Below the pieces are notes generated by a model. It was given only the letters and a program-made list of their open reading frames with translations. It was not told where the DNA came from and ran no database searches. This document shows positions 743 to 13,792 of a DNA stretch of 64,000 nucleotides, piece by piece (within the stretch, counting starts at the first letter, position 1; every line of letters starts with the position of its first letter). This stretch comes from Nocardioides sp. cx-173 (lineage in GTDB: Bacteria > Actinomycetota > Actinomycetes > Propionibacteriales > Nocardioidaceae), in contig NZ_CP088262.1 in assembly GCF_021117365.1 (NCBI RefSeq), positions 1,488,001 to 1,552,000 on the forward strand, in the 5' to 3' direction. The position numbers and the translations under genes are program-made.

Positions 743-1618
743 ATGACCGACACCTCGCCCATGCCTGCGCCGCAGAAGGACCACGGCCGCGCCGGGCGCG
801 ACCTCAGGGCTGCCGTGGGCTCCGCGGTCGTGCTGCTCGCGGCGATCGCGCTGTCGCTGCTGTTCTGGAAGCCGGCGTTCATGGCGATCGTCGTGATCGC
901 CGTGGTCGTGGCGATCTGGGAGCTGCGCCGGGGGCTCTCGGCCAAGGGCATTGACATCCCCGAGGAGCCGCTCATGGTGGGCGGCGCGGTCATGGTCGTG
1001 GTCGCCTACCTGTACGGCGCCCCGGCGCTGGTCACCGCCACCGCGGTCACCGCCCTCGGCACGATGCTGTGGCTGCTGCGCCGCGGGATCGACGGCTACG
1101 TCAAGAACGCGACGGCCTCGGTCTTCACGCTCGTCTACGTGCCGTTCCTCGGCTCCTTCGTGGCGCTGCTGCTGGCCGAGGGCGGGCTGGGCGGCGGGGG
1201 GCTGGACGACGACGGCGTCGCCGGCATCCTGGTGTTCATCCTGGTCACGATCTGCTCCGACACCGGCGGCTACATCGCCGGCGTGCTGTTCGGCAAGCAC
1301 CCGATGGCGCCGGTGATCTCTCCCAAGAAGTCGTGGGAGGGCTTCGCCGGCTCGATGGCCGCCACGGTCGGAGCCGGCATCCTGCTGGTCGTCCACCTCC
1401 TCGACGGCGACTGGTGGGTCGGCGCCTGCCTGGGCGTCATCGTCGCCGTGATGGCCACGCTGGGCGACCTGTGCGAGTCGGTCATCAAGCGCGACCTCGG
1501 CCTCAAGGACATGAGCCAGGTCGTCCCGGGCCACGGCGGCCTGATGGACCGCCTGGACTCGCTGCTCGCGACGGTCGCACCGGTGTGGCTGCTGCTGCAC
1601 TACCTCGTCTTCACGTGA
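743..1618 (+). CDS. cdsA: phosphatidate cytidylyltransferase
   Basis: This integral membrane enzyme converts phosphatidic acid and CTP to CDP-diacylglycerol, the precursor of phosphatidylglycerol and cardiolipin. The 291-aa protein has about eight hydrophobic segments. Close to the C-terminus it carries the family signature SVIKRDLGLKD...GHGGLMDRLDSL (about residues 243-274), whose lysine, aspartates and HGG element bind metal and CTP. It starts 20 bases after frr. Its TGA overlaps the GTG of the next gene by four bases (1615-1618), implying translational coupling. A phospholipid-precursor gene just upstream of the Lgt-like/radical-SAM cassette is a relevant neighbour. Confidence 0.95.
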   Translation: MTDTSPMPAPQKDHGRAGRDLRAAVGSAVVLLAAIALSLLFWKPAFMAIVVIAVVVAIWELRRGLSAKGIDIPEEPLMVGGAVMVVVAYLYGAPALVTATAVTALGTMLWLLRRGIDGYVKNATASVFTLVYVPFLGSFVALLLAEGGLGGGGLDDDGVAGILVFILVTICSDTGGYIAGVLFGKHPMAPVISPKKSWEGFAGSMAATVGAGILLVVHLLDGDWWVGACLGVIVAVMATLGDLCESVIKRDLGLKDMSQVVPGHGGLMDRLDSLLATVAPVWLLLHYLVFT

Positions 1619-2237: not shown

Positions 2238-2558
2238 ATGCTGACGCCCATGACCGCGCCCACCAGCCAGATCCGTGCCCTGCCGATCATCGGCGGCCTG
2301 GCGCTGGGCATGGTGGCCTGCTGGCTCTGGATCGCGGTGGCGCTCATCGTGGGCTTCGGCGCCGCCTACGGCAGCGACTCCGAGGCGCCTGCGATCCTCG
2401 CGCTGGCGGTAGCCGCGGTGCCGGTCGTCGTCGGCATCGTGCTGCTCCTGCGTCCCCGCACCCGTCAGCTGGGCGCCGGCTTCCTCATGGGCATCTCGAT
2501 CGGCTTCATCGCCGGCGCCGGCGTGTGCGCCTCGATGTTCTTCCCCGGGACGTTCTGA
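2238..2558 (+). CDS. small two-helix membrane protein (family A, copy 1)
   Basis: A 106-aa protein with two to three hydrophobic stretches: one near residues 12-36, one near 47-68, and a final one ending in GFIAGAGVCASMFF. The ATG at 2238 is favoured because GGGAG at 2226-2230 precedes it at good spacing; the in-frame ATG at 2250 is possible. A basic LRPRTRQLG loop precedes the last helix. The same layout (VP...L..RPTR..G.G...GI...AGVCA) recurs in the products at 5262 and 5660, so the three look like paralogues. It ends two bases before the Lgt-like gene and probably shares its transcript. No function is recognised. Confidence 0.75.
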   Translation: MLTPMTAPTSQIRALPIIGGLALGMVACWLWIAVALIVGFGAAYGSDSEAPAILALAVAAVPVVVGIVLLLRPRTRQLGAGFLMGISIGFIAGAGVCASMFFPGTF

Positions 2559-2560
2559 GC

Positions 2561-3346
2561 ATGCACGAGACCCTGGGCCCGATCCCCGCCCACGAGCTCT
2601 TCGTGCTGCTCGGCGTGCTCGCCGCGGGCGCGGTGTTCGCGCTGGAGGCGCGACGCCGCGGCCAGACCGACGAGCGGCTGGCCTACGTCATCCTCGGCGC
2701 GGTCGTCGGTGGGGCGGTCTTCATGCGCCTGGGCACCTGGATGCAGCACGTCGACCTGCGCGCCAACGCCTCGCTCGCCGAGCAGTGGCTCTACGGCAAC
2801 CGCTCGATCCTCGGCGGCCTGGTGGGCGCCTGGCTGGGCGTCCACGTCGCCAAGCGGGCGGTCGGCTACCGGGCGCGCACCGGCGACCTGTTCGCCCCCG
2901 CCGTCGCCCTCGGCATGGCCGTCGGGCGCATCGGCTGCCTGCTCACCGAGGCCCCGGGCACCCCGACCGCCGGCGGCTGGGGGATCACCCTGGACGCGGC
3001 GGCCGCCGAGCGCACCGGCGCCCCGGCCGGCGTGGGACTGCACCCCTCGTTCGTCTACGAGATCGTCTTCCACCTGGTCGCGTTCGGGGTGCTGTGGCTC
3101 TGGCTGCGCCACCGCGCGCTGCCGCCGGGGGAGTCGTTCGTCTGGTACGTCGCGTCGTACGGCGTCTTCCGCTTCCTCGTCGAGCTCGTCCGCGGAAACG
3201 AGGTCGCCTGGGCGGGGCTCACCCGCCCCCAGCTGTTCCTGATGGCGACGGTGCCGCTCGTGCTGCTCCGCATCGCCTACCAGGCGCGCCGCGGTGCCTA
3301 CCGCGGTGCGCTCCAACCCGCACCACGAGAGCAGGTCGACGCGTGA
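2561..3346 (+). CDS. Lgt-like membrane protein (divergent prolipoprotein diacylglyceryl transferase family)
   Basis: A 261-aa polytopic membrane protein related to Lgt, which moves diacylglycerol from phosphatidylglycerol onto lipoprotein cysteines. Family landmarks present are ILGGLVGAWLGV, GRIGCLLTE (Lgt usually reads GRIGNFxNxE), LHPSFVYE (Lgt HPSQLYE) and the C-terminal YGVFRFLVELVRGNE. Two hallmark positions differ: the His before GG in the usual HGG motif is Leu, and the Asn of GRxGN is Cys. The cell presumably has a true lgt elsewhere, so this copy may act on another acceptor or lipid. Its stop overlaps the radical SAM start by four bases, implying joint function. Confidence 0.8.
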   Translation: MHETLGPIPAHELFVLLGVLAAGAVFALEARRRGQTDERLAYVILGAVVGGAVFMRLGTWMQHVDLRANASLAEQWLYGNRSILGGLVGAWLGVHVAKRAVGYRARTGDLFAPAVALGMAVGRIGCLLTEAPGTPTAGGWGITLDAAAAERTGAPAGVGLHPSFVYEIVFHLVAFGVLWLWLRHRALPPGESFVWYVASYGVFRFLVELVRGNEVAWAGLTRPQLFLMATVPLVLLRIAYQARRGAYRGALQPAPREQVDA

Positions 3347-4920
3347 GCACGCAGGTCACCAGAGGACCCGGGATGCCGCTGCGCGGCGACCGGATCCACC
3401 GCTACGTCAACGCCTTCTGCCCGCTGTGCCACGAGGAGCGCCCCGACCGGCCGCTCGCCGAGGTGCGGAGGCTGTCCGGCTGGCTGGTCGAGCGGGACGA
3501 CCGGATCTGGCTCGAGCGGGGCTGCCCCGACCACGGGCTGGTCCGCACGATGTACGACGAGTCGCCCGAGATCCTGCGCTACCTCGAGGAGTGGACCGCG
3601 CCGACCAAGGTCCACGAGCCCGACCTGCGCGGCAACTTCAAGCCGGTGCCGTCGGCCTACGAGGACGGGCTGCCGGAGATGCAGACCCAGCACACCTGCA
3701 TCCTGCTCGAGGACCTGCTCGACCACTGCAACCTCAAGTGCCCGACCTGCTTCGCGGAGTCCTCGCCGGCGCTCGCGTCGGTCGCCCCGCTCGAGCAGGT
3801 GCTGGCCTCGATCGACGCGCGCCTGTCCCGCGAGAACGGCCGCATCGACGTGCTCATGCTCTCGGGCGGCGAGCCGACGCTCTACCCCCAGCTCGCCGAG
3901 CTGCTCGACGCGGTGGCCGCGCGCCCCGTCGTACGCGTCCTGGTCAACACCAACGGCCTGCGGGTGGCCCAGGACGACGAGCTGCTGGCGCTGCTGACCC
4001 GGCACCGGGAGCGGGTCGAGGTCTACCTGCAGTACGACGGCGGCTCGGCCGAGGCGTCGACGTACCACCGCGGCGCCGACATCCGCCGCTTCAAGGAGCG
4101 CGCAATCGAGCGGCTCTCGGCGGCCGGCGTCTTCACCACGCTGACCATGACCGCGGCGCTCGGGGTCAACGACGACGAGATCGGCCACGTCCTCAAGCGC
4201 GCCCTGGACACGCCGTACGTGGGCGGCGTGACCATCCAGCCGGTGTTCGGCAGCGGCCGCTCCGGGGCGATCGACCCGATGCAGCGGCTGACCCACACCG
4301 GTGTGCTGGCCCGGCTCGAGGAGCAGACGCAGGGGGTCGTGACCTGGCGCGACCTGACCGCGCTGCCGTGCTCGCACCCGCACTGCTGCTCCGTGGGCTA
4401 TCTGCTGCGCGACGACAGCGGAACGTGGAGCTCGCTCACGAAGCTGATCGGGCACGACAAGCTCAAGCAGTGGCTCGACCTCGAGCCGGACCTGCTGGCC
4501 AACCGGATCGCCGACGACACCATCCCCGACACGATGCGCCAGGTCGTCAAGGGCTCGCTGCTCGACCTGCTCTCGGAGCAGTCGTCGCTCTCGCACCCGT
4601 CCATGAGCACCATCTGGCGCGACATCTGCCAGAACTGCGACCTCGGCATCGGCACCCTCACGGCGCTGGCCGCCAGTCGCCTGCCCGGACAGCACCAGCG
4701 GCTGCGCAAGATGCTGGGGGAGCGGGTGCTGCGGGTGACGGTCAAGCCGTTCATGGACATGGACACGATGATCGAGGAGCGGCTCACGCAGTGCTGCGTG
4801 CACGTCGCGACGGTCAACGAGGGGACCGGCGGGCATCAGTGCGCGCCGTTCTGCGCGGTCCAGGCCTGGGCGCCGCTGAGCCGCACCCGCATCTCCACCG
4901 CCACCGGCGGGCGCGCGTGA
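3343..4920 (+). CDS. radical SAM protein, Tes/MJ0619-like
   Basis: A 525-aa radical SAM enzyme. The N-terminus has a rubredoxin/zinc-ribbon-like set, CPLC at 26-29 and CPDHG at 61-65. The radical SAM cluster motif is C129-x3-C133-x2-C136 (CNLKCPTC), followed by LSGGEPT for SAM binding. The C-terminal half has further cysteines suited to auxiliary clusters: PCSHPHCC, ICQNC, QCC, and C..FC in GGHQCAPFC. This plan resembles the archaeal tetraether lipid synthase family and its bacterial relatives, which couple lipid chains through unactivated carbons. Substrate identity is inference. The GTG start overlaps the Lgt-like stop and its own stop overlaps the next GTG, so three proteins are translated in tandem. 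Confidence 0.85.
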   Translation: MSTQVTRGPGMPLRGDRIHRYVNAFCPLCHEERPDRPLAEVRRLSGWLVERDDRIWLERGCPDHGLVRTMYDESPEILRYLEEWTAPTKVHEPDLRGNFKPVPSAYEDGLPEMQTQHTCILLEDLLDHCNLKCPTCFAESSPALASVAPLEQVLASIDARLSRENGRIDVLMLSGGEPTLYPQLAELLDAVAARPVVRVLVNTNGLRVAQDDELLALLTRHRERVEVYLQYDGGSAEASTYHRGADIRRFKERAIERLSAAGVFTTLTMTAALGVNDDEIGHVLKRALDTPYVGGVTIQPVFGSGRSGAIDPMQRLTHTGVLARLEEQTQGVVTWRDLTALPCSHPHCCSVGYLLRDDSGTWSSLTKLIGHDKLKQWLDLEPDLLANRIADDTIPDTMRQVVKGSLLDLLSEQSSLSHPSMSTIWRDICQNCDLGIGTLTALAASRLPGQHQRLRKMLGERVLRVTVKPFMDMDTMIEERLTQCCVHVATVNEGTGGHQCAPFCAVQAWAPLSRTRISTATGGRA

Positions 4921-5225
4921 GCCGGGACCCGCGGCTCGTCGAGCCGCAGCGCGTCGGGCCGGACGGCCAGGGCGGCCCGTCCGGACCGCCGGACCCGCTG
5001 CGGCTGTGCACGTTCGCGACGGTCGCGCTCCTCGGCTGGCTGCTGGGACCCGTCGCGGTCGTGGTGTTCGCTGCGGTCGGCTTCGCCGGCTACTGGCAGG
5101 CCCGCCGCGCGGGGCTGCTGCGCTCGCGCTGCAAGCTCGGCGACACCCGCCTGGTCCTGGTCTACCTCGCCGCACTGGCCGCCGCCGGCGTCGTCGGGAT
5201 CGTGCTCGGCTGGTGGGTGTGGTGA
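4917..5225 (+). CDS. small membrane protein coupled to radical SAM gene
   Basis: A 102-aa protein with a Pro/Gly/Asp-rich N-terminus of about 35 residues, a hydrophobic helix (about 36-60, TFATVALLGWLLGPVAVVVF), a short basic loop with RRAGLLRSRCKLGD, and a second helix ending GIVLGWWVW. The GTG start overlaps the radical SAM stop (GTGA). It is the last member of the tightly packed series that begins at 2238. No enzymatic motif is visible. It could be a membrane anchor or partner for the radical SAM protein; this is inferred only from gene coupling. Confidence 0.75.
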   Translation: MSRDPRLVEPQRVGPDGQGGPSGPPDPLRLCTFATVALLGWLLGPVAVVVFAAVGFAGYWQARRAGLLRSRCKLGDTRLVLVYLAALAAAGVVGIVLGWWVW

Positions 5226-5261: not shown

Positions 5262-5663
5262 GTGAGCCAACACCCCCCGCCGCCGTACGGCGGCACACCT
5301 CCCGGGGGCTGGGGGCCACCGGGGCCACCGAGCTCGTGGGGACCACCGCAGCCGAGGCCGCCGGGTGGGCTGCCGGTCTGGGGTCAGGTGCTGGCGGGGG
5401 CCGGCATCGGCCTGTTCGCCGGGGTCTTGCTGCTGGTCGTGGTGCTCGCGGTGGTGGCCACCCAGGCCGGCTCCGCCGAGATCTCGGGCCAGACCCTCTT
5501 CTGGCTGGTGGTGCTGGTCCCGATCCTGTGCCCCGTCCCGATGCTGCTCTTCCGCCCGACGCGCATGTGGGGCGTCGGCCTGATCATCGGCATCGCGGTG
5601 TCGACCATCTCGCTCGCGGGGGTCTGCGCCGCGATCATCACCGGTCTGGACGGTTCCGCATGA
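5262..5663 (+). CDS. proline-rich small membrane protein (family A, copy 2)
   Basis: A 133-aa protein with a Pro/Gly/Trp-rich cytoplasmic-type N-terminus (about 40 residues, repeated PPxxW patterns) and three predicted membrane helices. The last two are joined by FRPTRMWGVG and end in AGVCAAIITG. That second half resembles the products at 2238 and 5660. The GTG at 5262 lies exactly six bases after TAGAGT (5250-5255) and lacks a Shine-Dalgarno sequence, so the mRNA is probably leaderless. Its stop overlaps the start of the next paralogue by four bases (ATGA). Function unknown. Confidence 0.75.
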   Translation: MSQHPPPPYGGTPPGGWGPPGPPSSWGPPQPRPPGGLPVWGQVLAGAGIGLFAGVLLLVVVLAVVATQAGSAEISGQTLFWLVVLVPILCPVPMLLFRPTRMWGVGLIIGIAVSTISLAGVCAAIITGLDGSA

Positions 5664-6061
5664 GCACCCAACACCCCCTCGACAACCCCCGTGAGCCCAC
5701 ACCGGTCGATGCGGACGGGCACCAGGAGGAGCGTCACGAGCCGCAGGGCGACCCGCCGAGCTGGTGGCACCGCGACCACCCGACGTTCACCTCGCTCATG
5801 GGCTTCTTCACGGGCCTGGCGTTCATCATCGTGGTGCCCGGCACGTTCGCCGCCCTCCTCAGCGCGTTCTTCGACACCGGCACCGCGGAGGACCTGTTCC
5901 CCTTCGTGGTGCTCACCCTGGCCGTGCCGATCGGCCTGGTGGTGGCGCCGCGCACCCGGCTCTTCGGGCGCTACATGCTGGTCGGGATGGTGACGACGCT
6001 GCTCGTGGTGGGCGGGGTCGCCGCGCTGGTGCTCTGGCTGCTCATCAGCCGCGAGGGCTGA
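5660..6061 (+). CDS. small membrane protein (family A, copy 3)
   Basis: A 133-aa protein with a polar, acidic/His-rich N-terminus (about 50 residues, ending [11 protein letters not shown]) and three hydrophobic segments. The [15 protein letters not shown] loop and [10 protein letters not shown] helix correspond to LRPRTRQLGAGFLMGI and AGVCASMFF of the 2238 product. The ATG overlaps the stop of the preceding paralogue, so the pair is translated together. No catalytic residues are recognised. The three copies have unrelated N-termini but a shared C-terminal two-helix unit. Confidence 0.75.
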
Positions 6062-6101: not shown

Positions 6102-7229
6102 ATGTCCGAGCCGATCAAGACCCTTCCCCTCGTGTTCGACGAGCCCCGTGGGCGCAAGAAGCCGCCGCGGCACCTCGCCGACCTCACGGCCTCCGAGCGC
6201 AAGGCGCTCCTGGAGGAGAAGGGGCTGCCCGGCTTCCGCGCCAAGCAGCTCTCGACGCACTACTTCTCCCGCCTGGTCGACGATCCCGAGCAGATGACCG
6301 ACCTCCCCGCCGGCCAGCGCGCCGAGCTGGTCGAGGCGCTGCTGCCGACGCTGATGACGCCGCTGCGCACCATGGAGGCAGACAAGGGGACCACCCGCAA
6401 GACCCTGTGGCGGCTCTTCGACGGCGCCCTCGTCGAGTCGGTCCTGATGCGTTACCCCGGCCGGGTCACCATGTGCGTGTCCAGCCAGGCCGGCTGCGGC
6501 ATGGCCTGCCCGTTCTGCGCCACCGGTCAGGGCGGCCTGCAGCGCAACATGTCGACCGCCGAGATCGTCGAGCAGGTCGTCGCCGGCGCCCGCGCGCTCG
6601 CACGCGGCGAGGTGCCCGGCGGGCCCGGCCGTGTCTCCAACGTGGTGTTCATGGGCATGGGCGAGCCCCTGGCCAACTACAAGGCCGTGATCGGCGCCGT
6701 ACGCCGCCTCGTCGACCCCTCGCCCGACGGCCTGGGCATGTCCGCGCGCGGCATCACGGTCTCGACGGTCGGCCTGGTGCCGCGGATCCGGCAGCTGACC
6801 GAGGAGGGCATCCCGGTCACGCTGGCGCTGAGCCTGCACGCCCCCGACGACGAGCTGCGCAACGAGCTGGTGCCGATCAACACCCGCTTCTCGGTCGCCG
6901 AGACCGTGGAGGCCGCCTGGGACTACGCCCGGGTGACCAAGCGCCGGGTGTCGATCGAGTACGCCATGATGCGCGGCATCAACGACCAGGCCCACCGCGC
7001 CGACCTGCTCGCCGACGTCCTCAACTCCTACGGCGACTGGGGCTGGGTGCACGTGAACCTGATCCCGCTCAACCCGACGCCCGGCTCGAAGTGGACCGCC
7101 TCCGACCCCGCCGACGAGCGCGAGTTCGTACGCCGGCTCGAGGCGAAGGGCATCCCCACCACGGTCCGCGACACCCGGGGCAGCGAGATCGACGGAGCCT
7201 GCGGGCAGCTGGCCGCCGTCGAGGTCTGA
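6102..7229 (+). CDS. rlmN: 23S rRNA (adenine2503-C2)/tRNA methyltransferase
   Basis: RlmN is a cytoplasmic radical SAM enzyme that methylates C2 of A2503 in 23S rRNA and of A37 in some tRNAs. The cluster motif is C132-x3-C136-x2-C139 (CGMACPFC). The family-typical [12 protein letters not shown], the [12 protein letters not shown] helix and the C-terminal GACGQLA Cys, which forms the transient methyl thioether, are all present. Length (375 aa) is normal. Its radical SAM domain is unrelated in context to the Tes-like gene at 3343. The gene starts 40 bases after the membrane-protein pair and two bases before the GNAT gene. Confidence 0.95.
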
Positions 7230-8408: not shown

Positions 8409-8577
8409 GGCCTGCTCCTTCGGGCTGGGGGCGACGACGAGACGCGCGTGGCTACCTGGTGAACGGCGCCGCACCGTGGTCGTATCACCCCTATCCTAGG
8501 CAGAGCCACTGCGATTTCCGTTGGAACGTGCGCCCGCAACGACGCCGGCCCGCCCAGCCCAGGCACCCGGAGGTCTC

Positions 8578-9651
8578 GTGCCCGCCCGCTCTGCCGAGAT
8601 GCTCTCGGTCGCCCTCGTCGTCCCGCTGCAGGGGCCCACGGGGCTCTACGGCCCGTCCTGCCTGGCCTGCGCCGAGCTCGCCGCCGAGCAGCTCAACGAG
8701 CGCGACGGCATCGCGGGACGCCAGGTGGAGCTGGTGGTGGTCGACGCCGGGCGCGAGCCCCGGGTGGTCGCCGACGAGGTCGGCAGGCTGGTGGACGAGG
8801 GGCGGGTCCAGGCGGTCGCGGGGTGGCACATCTCCGCGGTACGACAGGCGATCACGCGGCGCGTCGGCGGCCGGGTCGTCTACGCGTTCGCCGCGATGCA
8901 CGAGGGTGGAGACGCCACCCCGGGCGTCTACATGATCGGTGAGCGCCCCATCAACCAGCTGCTGCCGGCGGCACACTGGATGCGCGAGGAGCTCGCGGTG
9001 GGCCGGTGGGCGATCGTGGGCAACGACTACGTCTTCCCGCGGGTCACCGGCGCCACGGCCAGGCTCGCGCTGGCCGACACCACCTCCGAGGTCGTCAGCG
9101 AGACCTACGTGCCGCTCGGGACCAGCGACTTCGGGGCGGTGATCGAGAGTCTGTCCCGCCAGCCGGTCGACGGGGTGATGATGCTGCTGATGGGGCAGGA
9201 CGCCGTCCACTTCAACCGCCAGTTCGCGCGCGCCGGGCTCTCGGCGCTGCTCCCGCGGCTCAGCCCGGCCGTCGAGGAGAACACGCTGCTGGCAGGCGGC
9301 GCCGGCGCCCACGAGGGCCTGTACGCGGCCGCGGCCTACTTCGACGCGCTCGGCACCGCCGAGAGCACCGAGCTGGCGCGCGCCTACTACGCCCGCTGGG
9401 GGCGCTGGGCGCCCACCCTCAACGCTGTGGGGGAGTCCTGCTACGAGGCGCTGTACTTCCTTGCCCGCGTCGGAGAGGTCTGCGGCTCCGTCGAGGTGGC
9501 GGCGGTCGCGGCGATGCCGTCCGGCCACTTCTACTCCAGCCCCCGGGGGCTGATGCGGCTCGACGGCAACCTCCTGGACCAGGACGTCTACGTCGCCGCT
9601 GCCGACGGCATGGAGTTCCGCATCGAGCAGCAGATCGCCCGGGCTCACTGA
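8578..9651 (+). CDS. cytoplasmic UrtA/AmiC-like ligand-binding protein
   Basis: A 357-aa type I periplasmic-binding-fold protein without signal peptide or lipobox. It begins directly with the first strand (MLSVALVVPLQGPTGLYG) and has AAEQLNERDGIAGRQVELVV, GNDYVFPR and NAVGESCYEALYFLA. UrtA at 17601 shares the fold and the DYVFPR stretch. AmiC, the cytoplasmic amide sensor of Pseudomonas, has this architecture, so sensing urea or a short amide is plausible. The GTG start is chosen for GGAGG at 8569-8573. It lies between a divergent MarR gene and the 3' end of the urease operon. No AmiR-like antiterminator is present. Confidence 0.75.
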   Translation: MPARSAEMLSVALVVPLQGPTGLYGPSCLACAELAAEQLNERDGIAGRQVELVVVDAGREPRVVADEVGRLVDEGRVQAVAGWHISAVRQAITRRVGGRVVYAFAAMHEGGDATPGVYMIGERPINQLLPAAHWMREELAVGRWAIVGNDYVFPRVTGATARLALADTTSEVVSETYVPLGTSDFGAVIESLSRQPVDGVMMLLMGQDAVHFNRQFARAGLSALLPRLSPAVEENTLLAGGAGAHEGLYAAAAYFDALGTAESTELARAYYARWGRWAPTLNAVGESCYEALYFLARVGEVCGSVEVAAVAAMPSGHFYSSPRGLMRLDGNLLDQDVYVAAADGMEFRIEQQIARAH

Positions 9652-9680: not shown

Positions 9681-10433
9681 TCACTGGCCCACCGCGCTCG
9701 CGTGCGCCGCGGCCCAGGCCGCCCCCAGCTCCGCCTCGTGGGCCTGCGCACCCAGCCGCCGCCACAGGGTGCCGCCGGCGTCCAGGTCGAAGCGGTACTC
9801 CGTCACACCGGCGACGGCCGGTGGCGGCCCCACCGACAGCACCGAGGAGACGACCCGGCGCCCGCCCAGCAGCCCCGCCGCCGCGGCCGGGTTCAGCGGC
9901 AGGTCCTCCACGAGGACCGGCCGGCCGGCCACCGTGACGTCGGTCCGCTGCCGGATAGAGCCGGGCGCCTCGCGGTGGCGGCCGAGCACCAGGGTCTCCC
10001 GCAGGGCCAGTCGGGCGCCGTCGGCCAGGCGCAGGACCGTCGTCCGGTCCACGTCGGCGCCGGCGGCCACGACGAACGGCTCCCCGGCCCAGGTCAGCAC
10101 CGCCCCCGGTCCCAGCGTCACCAGCACCGACCAGGAGGCGCTGCCGCCGCGCATGTCGAAGGCCACCGTCCCGCCGGGCTCGACCAGGTCCAGCCGGGCG
10201 CCCGCGTCGACGCTGACCTCGAGCGAGATCGCGTCGCCGGCGAGGAGCAGGGCGCCCTCCGGCACCAGCGAGACCAGCGCCTGCCGGGCGTCGTGGTGCA
10301 CGAGCACCGGGCGCAGCGAGGTCGCGCTGGGGTCCGAGAGGGTCACCTCCGTGCGCACCCGGCAGCGCGCGCCGTCGGGGGACGGGCTGACCCGCACCCG
10401 GGTGCGGGCGCCGCGCTCAGTGCTCGTGAGCAT
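9681..10433 (-). CDS. ureD: urease accessory protein UreD
   Basis: UreD (UreH) docks on apo-urease and, with UreF and UreG, passes nickel to the active site. The 250-aa protein has the family's beta-rich pattern, including [17 protein letters not shown] and [22 protein letters not shown], with an Asp/Glu-rich interior consistent with the nickel tunnel. It is the last gene of the leftward urt-ure unit and overlaps ureG by 17 bases. As in many actinobacteria the sequence is poorly conserved; position and motifs together make the call. Confidence 0.88.
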
Positions 10434-11106
10434 GCACGTGCCGCGCCATCGGTCCGGGGTCGCTCGGCACCAGCACTCCCGACGTGTGGCGCTCGCGCAC
10501 CCGGTCCAGCCACGCCACCAGGGACTCGACGCTGGCCGGGTCGGTCCGCGAGAGGCCGATGACCGGGCGACCGCTCCGGGCCGCCGCGGCCTCGGTGAGC
10601 ATCCGGGCTACGTCCACCCCGACGTACGGCGCCAGGTCGGTCTTGTTGACCACGAGCAGGTCGGCCCGCTCGATGCCGGGGCCGCCCTTGCGGGCCACGT
10701 CGCCGCCGCCGGCCACGTCGAGCACGAACACCTGGGCATCGACCAGGGCGGGGGAGAAGGTCGCGGTGAGGTTGTCGCCACCCGACTCCAGGAGCACGAC
10801 GTCGAGGTCGGGGTAGGTCTGCTCGAGCTCCTCGACCATCATCAGGTTGGCACTGATGTCGTCCCGGATCGCCGTGTGCGGGCAGGCTCCGGTCTCGACG
10901 GCGCGGATCCGGTCGGCCGCCAGCACCCCGGCCGAGCGCAGGAAGCGGGCGTCCTCGTCGGTGTAGATGTCGTTGGTGACGACGGCGAGGCTGAGCCGGT
11001 CCGACAGCTCTCGGCACAGCAGCGCGATCAGGGAGCTCTTGCCGGTGCCGACGGGTCCGCAGACCCCCAGGCGCAGCGGACGGCTCGGGTGGGTGTGCTC
11101 AGGCAC
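10417..11106 (-). CDS. ureG: urease accessory GTPase UreG
   Basis: UreG hydrolyses GTP to power nickel insertion. The 229-aa protein has the P-loop [10 protein letters not shown] (about 17-26), the nickel-binding Cys-Pro-His element in [13 protein letters not shown], the ESGGDNL switch segment and the base-recognition NKTDLA. The N-terminus has only [10 protein letters not shown], but the C-terminus ends RHVHAHEH, a short His-rich tail that might help hold nickel. This is noteworthy because no ureE metallochaperone gene is in the cluster. It overlaps ureF by eight bases and ureD by 17. Confidence 0.96.
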
Positions 11107-11761
11107 GGAACAGCCTCCTCGTGGTGCGGGCGTGGGCCTCTGCCCACTCCTCGATCTGGGGCGCGGTGACGGCGGGGATGTCGGCCGGGTCCTGCACCTC
11201 GGCCACCTCCAGCGCCACGACCGCGACGTCGGTCAGCGCGTCGGCGACCCAGCCGGCGACCGTGACCGGGTCCAGGGGCACCAGCTTGAGCGCCGCGGCG
11301 CACACGGTCTGCACGTCGTCGTAGGCCACCAGGTGCGCCAGCGCGGCGGCGCCGAGCCCGAGGTGCGCGGCGATGCACCCGAGCACGGTGGCTCGTGCGG
11401 GACGCTCGACGTGCGCGAGCGGGAGCAGGGCGTCCGGCCAGAGCCGGCCGGCGAGCCGCAGGAGGGCCTGCCCCTGGTCCCGCGAGGCCGTGCGCAGCGC
11501 CGGGGAGACGGTGCGCGCGGCCCATGCCCGCTCGACGTCGACCAGGCCAGGGCCGCCGGCCAGGACGGCGTGACGCGCGGCCACGGCGGTGCCGGCCTCC
11601 ACGCGGGTCACCCCTCGGAGCCGGGTGCGGACGTAGCCGGGCACCTGGTCCTCGGCGAGACCGTGGCGCAGCGCGCCCTCGAGGGTGGCCGACTGCGTGT
11701 GTCCGGCGACGGGTAGGCGCGCGTCGGCCAGCAGCAGGAGGACGAGGTCGGGGTGGGTCAT
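11099..11761 (-). CDS. ureF: urease accessory protein UreF
   Basis: UreF forms the UreD-UreF-UreG maturation complex and acts as a checkpoint for GTP hydrolysis. The 220-aa all-helical protein begins [26 protein letters not shown], matching the family's N-terminal LLQLADSxxPxGxxxxSxGLE pattern. It ends with an Arg-rich RTTRRLFRA tail, as needed for UreD/UreG contact. The start at 11761 follows the ureC stop by five bases. Assignment is supported by order (ureC-F-G-D) as much as by sequence. Confidence 0.88.
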
Positions 11762-11766
11762 GGCGC

Positions 11767-13465
<1,699 letters not shown>

Positions 13466-13473
<8 letters not shown>

Positions 13474-13792
13474 CCGACGAGCCGATCTGGATGCCGGGCA
13501 CCAGCCGGCGTCCGCGCAGCGCGACGATCGCGACCTCCTGGGAGGCCCCGGGCTCGAACCGTCGCGAGGTGCCCGAGGGGATGTCGAGGCGGAAGCCGGC
13601 CGCCCGCTCACGGTCGAGGTCGAGGGCGGAGTTCACCTGGGCCAGGTGCACGTGCGAGCCGATCTGCACCGGCCGGTCACCGGTGTTGGTCACGACCAGC
13701 CTGCGCCGCTCCTCGGGGGTGCGGTCGCCGTTCAGCACGACCGTGCCCGGTCCGGTCCTGGTCGCTCCGGGGCCGTCGGTCACGAGTCCCAC
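13466..13792 (-). CDS. ureB: urease subunit beta
   Basis: UreB is the beta-barrel structural subunit of urease. The 108-aa product has the typical [28 protein letters not shown] and [18 protein letters not shown] segments. The GTG at 13792 is chosen because AGGAGG ends five bases before it; a second GTG lies nine bases further in, and the frame continues uselessly upstream. Length agrees with the family (about 100 aa). It lies between ureA (25 bases upstream) and ureC (overlapping). Confidence 0.95.

Follow-up and report, generated by a model that had tools for sequence, protein, structure and literature searches.

What might a Tes/GDGT-MAS-like radical S-adenosylmethionine (SAM) enzyme do in an actinobacterium, where its gene overlaps that of an Lgt paralogue? 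The question is raised by a locus in Nocardioides sp. cx-173, within the stretch of 64,000 nucleotides that we analysed (contig NZ_CP088262.1, positions 1,488,001 to 1,552,000; hereafter the window). An earlier note on this DNA had described four consecutive genes, for a small membrane protein (SMP1), an Lgt-like protein (LGTL), a radical SAM enzyme (RSAM) and another small membrane protein (SMP2), packed with a 2-base gap between SMP1 and LGTL and GTGA overlaps at LGTL/RSAM and RSAM/SMP2. The coordinates agree exactly, and the four genes stand as a cassette to which a fifth, SMP3, must be added. We found that LGTL and RSAM are consistently associated across genomes, and that together they probably make a novel lipid or lipid-anchored protein.

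A scan of named genomes yielded 376 RSAM relatives, of which the best 80 loci, dominated by close relatives, were kept. LGTL lay beside RSAM in 79 of these, the exception (L089) being cut at a contig start, and the best named relatives of both proteins came from Nocardioides. LGTL preceded RSAM in 34 loci and followed it in 45, with one unassigned; the latter order, RSAM-SMP2-LGTL, occurred in Microbacterium, Agromyces, Leucobacter, Psychromicrobium, Tersicoccus and some metagenome-assembled genomes. Because adjacency is near-universal in the 80 loci and is kept in two gene orders, the pairing is not due to chance. Protein distances were also correlated between RSAM and LGTL (rho = 0.92, 95 of 99 loci, four being dropped for short or stop-bearing matches; at most 0.16 in 500 label permutations) and between RSAM and SMP2 (rho = 0.63, 80 loci), both values being uncorrected for shared ancestry.

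Some RSAM relative was present in 22 genomes of a 396-genome phylum sample (E ≤ 1e-25). Ten were of cassette type (58–100% identity, with a 48% C-terminal piece in G219) and the rest were 30–37% identical. An LGTL profile scored at least 324 bits in exactly these ten genomes, with the next score at 144. LGTL adjoined RSAM, upstream and on the same strand, in the nine cassette-type genomes besides the source, in G181 on one of two contigs holding RSAM pieces. The RSAM of G219 (L043/L068) aligned as two blocks (query 1–358 and 358–523) about 220 bases apart in one open frame, which suggests an in-frame insertion. Within the genus of genome G382 (148 genomes, E ≤ 1e-50), RSAM matched 40, three of which (G508, G534 and G568) held a distant relative only; all 37 cassette-type genomes carried LGTL on the same contig, 100–879 bases from RSAM. 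Two further genomes had LGTL at a contig end, one with 90 RSAM residues there (G459) and one cut off (G584). Genome G534, lacking a cassette-type RSAM at this threshold, contained a broken LGTL (G534:C79, 9514–9885; L209), as if the pair had decayed together. In the source organism's own genus, close RSAM genes occurred in only 3 of 37 genomes, the source genome included, and the cassette is therefore patchy there.

Whether all four genes stay together had been proposed as a check: LGTL and RSAM were constant, whereas SMP2 and the proteins with three transmembrane (TM) spans, to which SMP1 belongs, were each missing from some carriers. LGTL and RSAM hence form the invariant core, often accompanied by the small membrane proteins. 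SMP2 (motif DPLRLC...GL.RS.C.LGDTR, with C31 and C72 invariant in nine aligned sequences) was found in 77 of the 80 named loci, the others being L100, L157 and L159. SMP1 shares a 3-TM pattern with SMP3 and SMP4, encoded downstream, and has a G-x-C motif (G91 and C93 in numbering from ATG 2250) close to that end of its third span (TM3) which is predicted to face outward; SMP3 combines a proline-rich N-terminus with the same motif (LAGVC). None of the 9 SMP2 and 12 3-TM proteins scanned matched a Pfam family above its cut-off. Clustering the neighbours in the 80 loci (at least five copies per cluster) revealed no family beyond RSAM, LGTL, SMP2 and the 3-TM proteins in more than three genera; clusters were named by eye, and proline-rich N-termini may join some artificially.

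A hidden Markov model (HMM) grown from SMP1, SMP3, SMP4 and the same 80 loci on which it was run found 92 3-TM copies in 75 loci, all on the cassette strand. Three of the remaining loci stop at contig ends (L107, L110 and L153) and none was seen in L108 and L155; a small control, 13 loci of distant RSAM relatives, gave 0 matches among 952 open reading frames (ORFs). G-x-C lay near the C-terminus in 84 of the 92 copies, with at least one such copy in each of the 75 loci. The eight Cys-less copies were SMP4-like and all in loci titled Nocardioides. Since similar copies, none with a cysteine, occurred near rlmN in 5 of 8 cassette-less Nocardioides-type genomes, SMP4 is probably resident and outside the system, and we rejected it as a cassette member. 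This split between cassette and resident copies uses both sequence and place, and the locus-level count alone is free of circularity. In the genus of G382, a divergent member of the 3-TM family was encoded in 20 of the 21 genomes read at this locus, in most cases in the LGTL–RSAM interval; 8 of these matches were weak (E 0.01–0.18) and rest on position and motif too. G-x-C was retained in all 20, in most of them ahead of a polar tail, TGxNPxxY. The TM3 cysteine is thus tied to the cassette. By the positive-inside rule, TM3 would run from inside to outside, so that the cysteine would lie close to the outer face, the site of Lgt action.

RSAM matched PF04055 (68.3 bits, cut-off 29.5) and the PF23545 HMPTM N-terminal zinc ribbon (44.3 bits, cut-off 27) and has no membrane spans. 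The motifs noticed earlier, C26xxC29...C61xxH64 and C129xxxC133xxC136 with further conserved cysteines (119, 343, 348, 429, 432, 484, 485, 500 and 504), were all seen, and C26, C29, C61, H64, C129, C133 and C136 were kept in 22/22 aligned and 121/121 RSAM homologues. The accompanying claim of Tes likeness holds for these metal-site ligands and for the fold, which in the metal-free predicted model is shared over the whole length with 7TOL and 7TOM. It fails at the Tes/GDGT-MAS model NF045702 (155.6 bits, equivalog cut-off 450) and at the lost [Fe4S4]N ligands. The best NCBIfam score was to the TrsS model NF045646 (195.1 bits), which is also below its equivalog cut-off (490). An ordinary peptide maturase or a MoaA-like enzyme was rejected on lower structural Z.

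Relatives of RSAM were also seen in other settings. An actinobacterial genome (G417, L080, 1978–5349) contains a pair of Tes/TrsS-like radical SAM genes, with one small ORF in between, in what translations suggest is a gene set for fatty-acid or polyketide synthesis (ORFs resembling ketosynthases, acyl-carrier proteins and reductases). Two relatives of about 30% identity (L074, 6082–8561; L032, 8288–10723) are directly followed by ORFs that, by translation, resemble methyltransferases (KSCCAAAYEQ.../KGCCAASYSS...), perhaps of the arsenite-methyltransferase or TrsM type. In two genomes of one family (L077, 6920–8278; L078, 7213–8559), a relative has as neighbours a gene resembling glycosyltransferases and a gene set resembling molybdopterin oxidoreductases, judged by eye.

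LGTL is a member of the Lgt superfamily (PF01790, 100.1 bits, gathering cut-off 24.9) that scores about 62.4 bits to the Lgt equivalog TIGR00544, below the cut-off of 118.9. Its R123, R204 and E208 are equivalent to R143, R239 and E243 of Escherichia coli Lgt, and H11, L84 and C126 stand in place of Y26, H103 and N146. Across 240 LGTL homologues, H11, R123, C126, G133 (equivalent to G154), R204 and E208 were invariant, and position 84 was L in 236 and I in 4. Residues Y26, H103, R143, N146, G154 and R239 are essential in the E. coli enzyme, and H103 is replaced by W or Y in Lgts of Actinobacteria and Firmicutes (PMC13251419). A separate, ordinary Lgt with Y, W and N at the Y26, H103 and N146 positions is encoded in the same genome, and LGTL as the cell's sole Lgt was rejected accordingly.

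Given that a radical enzyme of the lipid-tail type is linked to a phosphatidylglycerol-type transferase, the simplest account is that RSAM and LGTL act on the same lipid. We tentatively favour, at a probability of about 0.42, a phosphatidylglycerol-dependent lipid-modification system in which RSAM alters acyl chains and LGTL transfers diacylglyceryl to a non-lipobox thiol. The lipid- or lipoprotein-modifying system suggested by the earlier note is partly supported overall. What the analysis shows directly is gene linkage, predicted folds, kept and lost ligands and residues and the TM3-cysteine tie; the steps themselves we infer as follows. RSAM, with its Tes fold, would come to the membrane, possibly with the help of SMP2, and would draw the acyl chains of phospholipids into a hydrophobic channel from the cytosolic side. 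There, a 5'-deoxyadenosyl radical would abstract hydrogen from an unactivated chain carbon, and the C-terminal [4Fe-4S] cluster would help to form a C–C (or C–S) bond on the chain. At the outer face, LGTL would bind phosphatidylglycerol, either RSAM-modified or ordinary, and move its diacylglyceryl group to a thiol other than that of a standard lipoprotein lipobox. As acceptor, the strongest candidate, present in most carriers, would be the G-x-C cysteine at the predicted outer TM3 end of SMP1 and SMP3. In a bolder form, which we consider decidedly improbable, RSAM, working from the cytosol, would weld acyl chains of two phosphatidylglycerols to give a membrane-spanning (or cyclic) lipid, and LGTL, at the outer face, would attach the glyceryl end of this lipid to the uncleaved internal TM3 cysteine.

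Several observations weigh against the favoured system. RSAM falls below the Tes cut-off and scores nearer to TrsS, and it lacks the [Fe4S4]N ligands, Met439 (K468) and Tyr459 (V488). The N146C replacement is not specific to LGTL and occurs in distant Lgts, including the Leptospira interrogans enzyme, an Lgt that gives partial complementation in E. coli (PMC13251419). With P, V or F often at position -1, the TM3 motif does not qualify as a lipobox. No 3-TM protein was found at the locus in five genomes outside the class (G160, G310, G181, G392 and G219), which had weak matches elsewhere (best 22 bits) and do contain SMP2, and SMP2 is missing from 32 of the 37 carriers in the genus of G382; neither can therefore be a universal acceptor. 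Among the literature matches listed, no unusual lipid was described from such strains. RSAM might instead modify the small membrane proteins, for example by a cross-link at conserved cysteines, with LGTL lipidating the product. Maturases of the radical SAM superfamily commonly have small partners, RSAM is accompanied by two families of small membrane proteins that contain cysteine, and it lacks some features of GDGT-MAS; we nevertheless regard such a maturase as unlikely.

Also unlikely is that RSAM alters single acyl chains (introducing a methyl branch, a double bond or sulfur) or some other small hydrophobic compound, as is conceivable for the TrsS branch, with LGTL transferring that lipid. 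This would fit the top TrsS score, the methyltransferase-looking genes (by eye) adjoining some relatives of 30% identity and the sulfur–carbon intermediate through which the GDGT-MAS reaction passes (PMC9433317). Nine distant actinobacterial relatives that we aligned, however, keep a CPxDCGxC motif that RSAM lacks, and no further neighbour family recurs around the cassette in more than three genera. LGTL could also be a non-catalytic scaffold that binds phosphatidylglycerol and presents it to RSAM, given that three residues essential in E. coli Lgt are replaced in LGTL and that the genome's ordinary Lgt has Y, W and N there. LGTL homologues conserve these replacements, however, and keep the equivalents of R143, G154, R239 and E243 invariant, which fits an altered catalytic site better; H103 also varies in Lgts of Actinobacteria and Firmicutes. 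We consider the scaffold rather improbable. That LGTL is merely a weak second Lgt, adjacent to RSAM by coincidence, is contradicted by the genome surveys, with their strict co-occurrence and two gene orders, and is very improbable.

Features of the locus, in window coordinates
Feature	Position	Strand	Remarks
SMP1	2238..2558 (alternative start 2250)	+	ATG 2238 or ATG 2250, stop 2558
LGTL, Lgt-like integral membrane protein (PF01790)	2561..3346	+	ATG start
RSAM (525 aa), radical SAM enzyme resembling Tes/GDGT-MAS	3343..4920	+	GTG start
SMP2, small membrane protein	4917..5225	+	GTG start
SMP3, second cassette copy of 3-TM family	5262..5663	+	homologue of SMP1
SMP4, Cys-less 3-TM paralogue	5660..6061	+	probably resident
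cdsA, CDP-diacylglycerol synthase	743..1618	+	PF01148, 182.7 bits; flanking resident gene
rlmN	6102..7229	+	flanking resident gene

The phospholipid gene near the cassette, pointed out earlier, is cdsA, but it is only a local address: it was found in just 12 of the 80 named loci, all in Nocardioidaceae by record title (Marmoricola being assigned to that family for this count), and we therefore rejected it as a functional partner. On the other side, rlmN was found in 13 of the 80 loci and in 8/8 cassette-less relatives searched. A histidine-phosphatase (phosphoglycerate-mutase-like) gene (1615–2133) overlaps cdsA by 4 bases; because it occurs in 6 of the 80 loci and, near rlmN, in 2 of 8 cassette-less relatives, it is probably resident. 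Further along the window, translations judged by eye resemble a substrate-binding protein for amides or urea (8521–9651, + strand) and urease with urease accessory genes (9681–13611, - strand).

Homologues of GDGT-MAS occur without known function in bacteria not known for such lipids (PMC9433317), and a part for them in bacterial membrane-spanning lipid synthesis has been proposed but not confirmed (PMC8941075, PMC11868695). The cassette, carried by cultured genera (Microbacterium, Knoellia, Nocardioides and Agromyces), now links one bacterial Tes branch, through strict co-occurrence, with a transferase of the phosphatidylglycerol type and with two families of small membrane proteins, and thereby opens the role of these relatives to experiment. 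It might also account for the unusual second Lgt that some actinobacteria possess. If a tail-coupled lipid were placed on a protein, this would amount to lipidation of an internal cysteine that needs neither a lipobox nor cleavage of a signal peptide, in ordinary actinobacteria such as Nocardioides and Microbacterium. The component families are variants of known ones, while their combination appears new to us: neither the LGTL–RSAM pairing nor the cassette was described among the literature matches listed, which were open-licence publications represented mainly by titles and abstract openings.

Compared with known systems, LGTL departs from Lgt (PDB 5AZB) by Y26H, H103L, N146C and its TIGR00544 score below cut-off. 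MSMEG_5408, the second Lgt of Mycobacterium smegmatis, is described with Y26H and N146C, as in LGTL (PMC13251419); judged by these two residues and that description, the two may be kin, and M. smegmatis was not among the best 120 matches of our protein search. TrsS provides the best NCBIfam model for RSAM, yet the score is far below cut-off. Mss, a bacterial membrane-spanning lipid synthase set beside RSAM by description only, resembles it in proposed chemistry by analogy, namely the coupling of two acyl chains (PMC13274423). GDGT-MAS/Tes (MJ0619; PDB 7TOL and 7TOM) accommodates two phospholipids, is expected to tolerate different head groups and acquired bacterial phospholipids from E. coli (PMC9433317). 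RSAM is like it in whole-length predicted fold, in the rubredoxin-type C-C-C-H site and CxxxCxxC radical SAM cluster, and in C348, C484, C485 and C504, which align with C338, C455, C456 and C470. The two are only about 22% identical, however, and the [Fe4S4]N ligands C73, C77 and C80 are replaced by V/L/I, a variable residue and P/G in 22/22 RSAMs. Met439 is Lys in 22/22 and Tyr459 is Val in 21/22; both are conserved in archaeal homologues, and GDGT-MAS M439A and Y459F/L are active (PMC9433317). RSAM has C343, C429, C432 and C500 in addition and, unlike GDGT-MAS, is bacterial and encoded beside an Lgt paralogue.
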